A DNA stretch of 34,544 nucleotides from Acidobacteriota bacterium (lineage in GTDB: Bacteria > Actinomycetota > Acidimicrobiia > Acidimicrobiales > RAAP-2). Where the stretch lies: assembly GCA_028873575.1 (NCBI GenBank), contig JAGWHY010000013.1, positions 1 to 34,544 of the forward strand. Reading direction: 5' to 3'. Positions within the stretch are counted from its first letter, which is position 1. Every line of letters starts with the position of its first letter. Positions 32,676 through 34,544 of this stretch are shown here, piece after piece. The notes under the pieces were generated by a model. The model saw nothing but the letters and a program-made list of their open reading frames with translations, ran no database searches and had not been told where the DNA came from. The position numbers and the translations under genes were made by a program.

Positions 32676-32923
32676 GTGAACCACTCCGTCGTCGTCGAAG
32701 TCACGTTGCGTCCCGGTATTGCCGACCCGGAAGGGGCGACCATTGAACGCGCCCTCCCGGCGCTGGGCTTCGCGGGGGTCGCGAACGTGCGCGCCGGGAA
32801 GCTCTTTCGCCTCGACGTCGAGGCCGCGTCGGCCGAGGAGGCCCTCGAAAAGGCGCGGGCGTTGGCCGAGCGGCTCTTGTCAAATCCGGTCATCGAAGAC
32901 GCGCACGTGAGGCTGCGCTCCTC

Positions 32924-32927
<4 letters not shown>
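32676..32927 (+). CDS. purS: FGAM synthase subunit PurS
   Basis: An 83-residue small subunit of formylglycinamidine synthase. It has the VVVEVTLRPGIADPEGATIERALPALGF start and the NVRAGKLFRLDVEA strand typical of PurS. It bridges PurQ and PurL and channels ammonia between them. Its presence, with separate PurQ and a small PurL, shows the three-part FGAM synthase used by Gram-positive bacteria and archaea. The stop overlaps purQ (GTGA). Confidence 0.95.
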
Positions 32928-33594
<667 letters not shown>

Positions 33595-33598
<4 letters not shown>

Positions 33599-34065
33599 AC
33601 GACGCCGACCCTCGCGTCGACGGGTCCGCGACGACGCGTCGCGTCGCCTTGCTCTGTTACGGCGCCGCGGCACTCATCGTCGCCTACTGGGTGGTGTGGT
33701 TCGCGCGTCGCTCGCTGGTCGCCACGAGTACGGCGCCGACGTACGTCGCCTTTGAGCAGGCCTTTCCGCTCGCCGACGGGTTCATCGTGGTCGCGCTCGT
33801 CGCCGGCGCGCGGGCGCTCGCGCGCGGCTCGTCGCGCGCCGTACTCTTCTTGCTCCTCGGCGCCGGAGCCGGTTTGTACCTCGGGGCGATGGACGTGCTC
33901 TACGACCTCGAACACGGCGTCTGGGCCCAGGGCGCGAACGGTCTGATCGAACTCGCGATCAACGTCGTCACCTTCGCCGCCGCCACGAGTTTCGCGCGCT
34001 GGGTCTGGCGCGCGCGTCGTCGCCTCGATCCCGTGTCGGACGACGGGCCCTCGGCGCTCCAGTAG
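33595..34065 (+). CDS. Small four-helix membrane protein of unknown function inside the pur operon
   Basis: A 156-residue protein that I do not recognise. A short basic N terminus (DPRVDGSATTRR) leads into four hydrophobic segments at about 16-36, 48-70, 78-99 and 112-132. The end is basic then polar (RWVWRARRRLDPVSDDGPSALQ). The positive charges after helix 4 suggest cytoplasmic N and C termini. The start is TTG 33595, overlapping the purQ stop (TTGA), the same style as neighbouring joints, so translation is probably coupled. purL begins 9 bases after its stop. Codon use is like the neighbours, so it does not look newly acquired. No catalytic motif is visible; a link to purine transport or to nothing at all in the pathway are both possible. 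Confidence 0.75.
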
Positions 34066-34074
34066 TTTGGTGGG

Positions 34075-34544
34075 GTGAGTAGCGTCCCCGAGCCCCTGCA
34101 CCGGGCCCTTGGACTGACCGATTCGGAACTCGACGCCATTCGCGCCACCTTGTCGCGCGAACCCAATTCGCTCGAACTCGCGCTCTACGGGGTGATGTGG
34201 TCGGAGCACTGCTCGTATAAGTCCTCGCGTCTGCACTTACGGCGCCTCCCCACGACGGCGCCGCACGTGCTGGTCGGCCCGGGCGAGAACGCGGGCGTGA
34301 TCGACGCCGGGGACGGGGTCGCGGTCGCGATTCGTATCGAGAGCCACAACCACCCCTCCGCCATCGAGCCCTACCAGGGCGCGGCGACCGGAGTGGGCGG
34401 TATTTTGCGTGACGTGTTCACCATGGGCGCGCGCCCGCTGGCCGTGATGGACCCCCTGTTCTTTGGCGAGCTCGACGAGGCGCGTCAGCGCTGGCTCGTC
34501 GAGGGCGTCGTCGCGGGGATCTCGGGTTACGGCAACTCGGTGGG
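34075..34544 (+). CDS. purL: FGAM synthase large subunit PurL, N-terminal part (3' end outside window)
   Basis: The frame from GTG 34075 stays open to the right edge (156 residues visible). It reads as the small, bacterial-type Pur[21 protein letters not shown], then [19 protein letters not shown], then the ATP/substrate motif [19 protein letters not shown] and [19 protein letters not shown]. It performs the ATP-driven amidation of FGAR using ammonia from PurQ. GGTGGG lies just before the start codon. It begins 9 bases after the membrane gene and clearly belongs to the same operon. Confidence 0.95.

Follow-up and report, generated by a model that had tools for sequence, protein, structure and literature searches.

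A small membrane protein gene lodged between purQ and purL is probably an accessory neighbour of purL and not part of FGAM synthase

PurS, PurQ and PurL form one three-part complex, FGAM synthase. In the stretch of DNA analysed here (34,544 nucleotides, called the window below) the genes for the last two are separated by a frame encoding a 156-residue membrane protein, which we call X and which a sequence-only reading of the window had singled out. The frame starts with TTG on the purQ stop codon and leaves 9 bases before purL, as that reading had described and the sequence bears out. Does such a close fit mean that X belongs to the complex? The phrase 'between purQ' occurred in no paper among the literature matches listed. 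Our answer, which we hold with a probability of about three in four, is that X is an accessory gene for a membrane protein, inherited vertically and sharing its site with purL, and not a component of FGAM synthase. X would thus be the gene of a dispensable small inner-membrane protein, long located just upstream of purL, and would be no subunit, tether or dedicated carrier of the complex.

The gene and the contents of the purQ-purL gap

The genes around X, among which purC was also identified with Pfam, follow the order purC, purS, purQ, X and the start of purL. The features used below are these:

32676..32927, + strand: purS (Pfam PurS, 5.4e-27)
32924..33598, + strand: purQ (Pfam GATase_5, 1.4e-34)
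33595..34065, + strand: X, a 156-aa four-helix membrane protein of an uncharacterised family (open reading frame and translation, structural model, alignments A1 and A2, genus survey)
33595..33598, + strand: TTGA overlap, in which the TTG start of X lies over the TGA stop of purQ (from the sequence; the same overlap is present in the sister genome G066)
34063..34068, + strand: TAGTTT hexamer, putative -10 element of a leaderless purL promoter, whose first 3 bases are the X stop codon
34075..34544, + strand: N-terminal part of purL, truncated by the contig end (Pfam AIRS, 6.2e-19; FGAR-AT_linker, 2.8e-13), the rest being in contig C93

The X stop codon occupies 34063-34065 and the GTG of purL follows, after the 9 bases, at 34075. 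The window contig (C18) stops at 34544 inside purL, and the purL frame resumes in C93 of the same genome (L061, G000). Both contigs share a 456-base overlap inside purL with 98.0% identity, and its 9 mismatches suggest strain variation at the assembly break.

X is a real gene beyond chance. It is present as a single copy in its own genome, the gene or a remnant of it was found by profile search in 20 of the 99 genomes of the genus, and seven orthologue pairs gave dN/dS values from 0.09 to 0.45 (NG86; dS is near saturation in several of the seven pairs, and YN00 failed in three).

We have surveyed the junction between purQ and purL across the genus. At E <= 0.001 purQ was hit in 86 and purL in 84 of the 99 genomes, a few of these hits being weak matches to other proteins, and both genes lie on one contig and one strand in 78. 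The gap contains nothing in 38 of these genomes, only a gene that we call H in 24, X alone in 11 (two of which, G020 and G053, are near twins), H together with X in 4, and a decayed X in 1 (G086), which retains only the last third. H, the commonest resident of the gap, encodes an antisense Lys-rich protein of ~146 residues (for instance in L072, L095 and L064:8036-8467), and two members scanned gave no Pfam match over the cut-off. When H is present, X lies 0.4 to 0.9 kb from purQ. The 20 genomes with X comprise the 16 junction genomes, three with a contig break at X (G017, G079, and G080) and G155, so that 19 of the 20 X genes or remnants of the genus are at the purQ-purL gap, three of them as judged from broken contigs. 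Outside the genus, H and X together occupy the same place in G200 (another genus), L037 and L042, and H does so in six genomes; in G357 and G400 purQ lies outside the stretch and H was not seen, and the H state of G429 is a partial match (E 1e-11). In one locus (L096, in G087) an extra frame of ~180 residues, DinB-type by eye, lies between X and purL.

All these counts bear on the possibility that X tethers FGAM synthase to the membrane or assists it there. The location of X at the junction in 19 of the 20 X-bearing genomes of the genus and its stop-start overlap with purQ in the window would agree with such a role; however, a component of the complex should be present wherever purQ and purL are, and 62 of the 78 junctions do without X between both genes. 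We consider a tether very improbable, and further evidence against it is given below. Among the three options put forward from the sequence alone (a tether, a carrier of purine or phosphate, or an unrelated passenger), the survey favours the passenger.

A candidate purL promoter and the history of the site

The 9 bases between X and purL had been read as tight coupling, which together with the overlap at purQ would mean that X is made together with FGAM synthase. Positions 34063-34077 of the window are TAGTTTGGTGGGGTG, and contain a TANNNT hexamer that starts 12 bases upstream of the GTG of purL. In the available text of PMC3160421, a TANNNT located ~12 bp upstream of the start codon (from its first T) is described as a mark of leaderless genes, which average 19.2% of the genes in Actinobacteria. 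In Mycobacterium tuberculosis, according to the available text of PMC3898074, TANNNT is centred 7-12 bp before 73% of the primary transcription starts and is often preceded by [G/C][A/G]N, a pattern that is fitted by the CAG directly before the hexamer of the window.

Of 87 junctions examined, 75 have a TANNNT located 5-8 nt upstream of a possible purL start, and in 68 of these the spacing is exactly 6. It is present in 29/30 junctions with H, 7/7 with H and X, the only one with a remnant (1/1), 11/11 with X and 27/38 of the empty ones. The 12 junctions that lack it are that of G250 and 11 with no insert, with purQ-purL gaps of -10 to 26 bases; that is, the hexamer is lacking at junctions with overlapping or almost overlapping genes, and there purL can be read on from purQ. 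An exception among the short junctions is G031 (22 bases), in which TANNNT is present. As background, only 11 of the 1845 RTG triplets in the window have a TANNNT at 5-8 and 5 have it at exactly 6, and it precedes 1 of 36 H starts. Because each purL was tested with several starts and four spacings, and because the 87 sequences are related, this excess is large but carries no simple P-value. The pattern showed no enrichment over the whole window (5 found vs 5.85 expected). Elsewhere in the window, positions 1045-1059 contain TANNNT-N6-ATG exactly before the open reading frame 1057-1722, a candidate leaderless gene.

By this consensus match, purL appears to have its own leaderless promoter, overlapping the X stop codon. 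In each of the 11 X-only genomes X ends on the TAG of this hexamer, and the remnant and the X of 2 of the 7 H+X loci do likewise. As the hexamer is equally present without X, it would be the older feature, and the 9-base spacing between X and purL follows from it. Furthermore, because the X stop lies inside the purL hexamer, its closeness to purL is no proof of co-expression. On the purL side, then, the idea of joint production is not supported, while on the purQ side it is plausible in the window owing to the TTGA overlap, although as a feature specific to X-only genomes.

The coincidence of stop codon and hexamer could also be taken as a sign that the X frame acts in cis, with transcription or translation of X as far as the stop in the -10 box tuning the purL promoter. 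It is found in all the X-only genomes, as stated, but purL has the hexamer irrespective of X, so that X may simply end at the first stop available, and the purifying selection on the protein together with its spread to places without purL indicates that the protein matters by itself. A role in cis is quite unlikely in our view.

Regarding the history of X at the site, a tree of PurQ and the N-terminal part of PurL with 82 rows requires at least 7 changes for X presence and 7 for H, as parsimony counts that do not separate gains from losses. This is a quick tree, with 19 of its 79 inner branches strongly supported, made with 82 of 89 rows: G357, G400, and G429 (no purQ in the stretch) and G489, G502, and G020 (too short) were left out, and G053 was removed by hand as the twin of G020, so that neither twin is in the tree. 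Repeated losses of X are easier to believe than seven separate arrivals before purL, and the decayed copy of G086 looks like a loss in progress. Moreover, X distances track those of PurQ/PurL (Spearman 0.63 in 17 genomes, a value reached by 0 of 2000 permutations), which is what one expects from vertical descent. The arrival of X with a mobile element was considered and judged unlikely, as the position is shared across genera and the distances follow PurQ/PurL.

A TANNNT is located 6 bases before a start codon of X in 4 of the 7 H+X loci (for G087 this count used an X match in a wrong frame) vs 1 of the 11 X-only genomes, at spacing 8, from which we infer that X was once leaderless and joined purQ upon the loss of H. 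The older layout would have been purQ> <H X> purL>, with separate leaderless promoters for X and purL. H would then have been lost in some lineages, which would have left X directly behind purQ. In the genome of the window, where the X start overlaps the stop codon of purQ, X is probably expressed from the purQ transcript, and purL would retain its own promoter, with a -10 hexamer that begins with the X stop codon.

X away from purine genes

In G155, X is flanked by genes for a response regulator and an amino acid permease, and we found no purQ, purL or purC in this genome (94% complete, 170 contigs). Their absence is likely but not certain, as this is a draft genome. A component of FGAM synthase should be absent when the purine pathway is absent, and G155 has kept X, which is a further point against a tether. 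Several genomes of the genus lack hits for purC, purQ and purL (G155, G039, G016, G019, G071, and others); out of 13 such genomes tested for purC, 12 gave no match and the thirteenth a fragment. Because G039 is assembled in 7 contigs with 97% completeness, some members of the genus have probably lost purine synthesis.

X was present in 14 of 395 genomes sampled from the class (the genus included) and in 31 of 396 from the phylum. Outside the usual site of the genus, none of PurA, B, C, D, S, Q or the PurL N-terminus was found near X in 31 of 32 loci (G155 included), the sole exception being G200. X relatives thus occur elsewhere without purine neighbours, which again does not suit a tether. 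The sequence-only reading would have been contradicted by a gene found equally often in unrelated places; this is largely the case outside the genus, but inside it X is nearly always at the gap, and the site beside purL may bring some benefit.

The neighbours of X are stable within groups of loci but differ between them. In the 20 phylum loci, a glycyl radical enzyme is found in 8, with a prenyltransferase-toroid-like protein accompanying it in 7, and a class III PhaC and a nucleosidase are beside X in 7 others; WS/DGAT, MOSC and PLP decarboxylase are among the other neighbours. In the eight loci with the glycyl radical enzyme (L125, L126, L128, L130, L134, L136, L137, and L138, from other Actinomycetota), this enzyme is pyruvate-formate-lyase-like and falls below the NCBIfam equivalog cut-offs in the two scanned, and the toroid-repeat protein is present in seven.

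It has also to be considered whether X could be a carrier of a purine, a nucleoside or phosphate, with an expression that follows the need for purines. X adjoins purine genes in this family of bacteria, a purine-type nucleosidase (PNP_UDP_1) is located within a few kb in 7 of the 20 distant loci, and the NMN transporter is the model most commonly matched among the matches listed for 45 family members (8/45, best E 0.001). However, this match is weak and reaches only those 8 members, a protein of 156 residues and four helices is small for a carrier, the remaining neighbours described above are of other kinds, and X persists in G155 without purC, purQ and purL. A carrier seems to us highly unlikely.

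Sequence family, predicted fold and comparison with known systems

X homologues were collected by protein search of relatives and named public genomes (15 loci from 70 candidate stretches) and aligned in 23 rows (A1) and in 45 rows, down to 21% identity with X (A2). The invariant positions of A1 include W32, W35, Y50, F53, E54, F57, P58, A60, D61, D100, L102, D104, E119, I122, W138, and R141, among others; in A2, W32, F57, D61, L96, and D100 are invariant and F53, E54, A60, L102, I122, and W138 nearly so. No model of Pfam, NCBIfam or PHROGs consistently matched across the family. The best Pfam match of X, DUF4328 (PF14219), is below threshold (17.2 bits vs a cut-off of 27.2) and is matched by 6 of the 45 members at E <= 10 (best 0.0028), and the best E-value among the matches listed for the 45 members was 1.4e-4, for DUF2127 in 2 members. 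X is thus a member of a conserved family without a name in the searched libraries and with a clear set of invariant residues. Nramp-like frames (~550 aa) with a weak match to X (E 1e-5 to 1e-3) were found in 8 genomes and set aside, and 3 further genomes have such a match in addition to X. Two of these frames (L022 and L025) were judged by eye to be Nramp-type metal transporters, and none was present in the genus profile-search result for X.

The AlphaFold2 model of X (mean pLDDT 88.2, pTM 0.81) is a four-helix bundle with long helices at residues 10-37, 57-76, 81-107 and 114-139 and a short extra helix (48-55) that precedes the second long one, and a member from another branch (L126) has the same plan (pLDDT 92.1). 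With the model helices divided by us into outer and inner halves, conservation in A2 was 0.62/0.44, 0.70/0.50, 0.74/0.57 and 0.60/0.46 (outer/inner), and 0.32 and 0.41 in the tails. We placed the less conserved side in the cytoplasm because basic residues are concentrated in its loop and tails (K+R of 8.55 per protein vs 3.40 on the other side). Contrary to this topology, the outer loop 108-114 has 1.27 K+R vs 0.29 D+E per protein, and the well-conserved W138 and R141 sit at the inner end, against the outer-side clustering. According to this model, X probably has both N and C ends inside, and its conserved residues are predicted to concentrate on the outer side, away from the cytoplasmic PurQ and PurL. 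The tails, which are predicted to be cytoplasmic and would be the likeliest contact of a tether with enzymes there, are the least conserved parts of the protein. E54, D61, D100, D104, E106, E119, and N123 would form a conserved polar site in the outer half of the bundle, accompanied by W32, W35, F53, F57, and P58, and the likeliest use of X would be to bind or convert a small membrane-soluble or extracytoplasmic ligand.

A more specific proposal is that X is EBP/EXPERA-like, with a lipid-binding or lipid-isomerising pocket in the outer half of the membrane. Human EBP (6oht) is at the top of the VIA-align results for the models of two members that are 21% identical (Z 10.9, rmsd 3.2, 137 aligned; Z 11.1, rmsd 2.9, 133 aligned), both alignments covering one chain range (60-217/219), and a lipid role would suit a WS/DGAT and an FAD oxidoreductase near X in G099 as well as the prenyltransferase-toroid-like protein found in 7 of the 20 phylum loci. 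However, these EBP scores are tied with those of unrelated soluble or designed helical bundles (8a3k, Z 10.5; 6zif, Z 11.0) and are under ~13, the level that VIA-align asks for bundles, and Foldseek gave no match at E <= 0.001. Comparison of the 45 X rows with 2 bacterial EXPERA-family proteins by hhalign gave a probability of 0.1 of 100 (E 0.62), the family PF05241 was absent among the families listed for 23 members and among the best 25 of 46 families for 45 members, and a search for it in G000 found nothing. An EBP-like pocket that binds or converts a lipid is thus a lead of low probability, and it is equally doubtful, although conceivable, that X founds an unrecognised prokaryotic membrane family, with the motifs YWxxWF, FExxFPxAD and MDxLYD, distributed over many Actinomycetota and some Myxococcota and having such an outer lipid pocket, possibly a lipid isomerase or receptor.

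Taken as an accessory gene, X has a wider meaning for the reading of gene neighbourhoods. Two genes that flank a third one at distances of only a few bases need not be functionally tied to it, as a neighbour can become 'operonic' through the deletion of intervening DNA, and a stop codon that falls inside the promoter of the following gene can lie close to that gene for this reason. In other respects X would be an ordinary accessory gene.

Several known systems can be compared with this locus. With the leaderless genes of Actinobacteria, purL shares a TANNNT that begins 12 bases upstream of the start codon, as given in the available text of PMC3160421, and it differs in that the putative -10 hexamer doubles as the stop of the upstream gene. 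Like the EBP/EXPERA proteins (PF05241), which are small membrane proteins of four to five helices and provide the best structural row for both X models, X is predicted to be a small helical bundle; in contrast, no sequence or profile relation between them was found, and the structural score is shared with unrelated bundles. Finally, X resembles the components of the PurS-PurQ-PurL FGAM synthase in sitting among their genes in this genus, and it differs from them in being often absent, in occurring also where those genes are not, and in having its conserved side predicted to face away from the cytoplasm.
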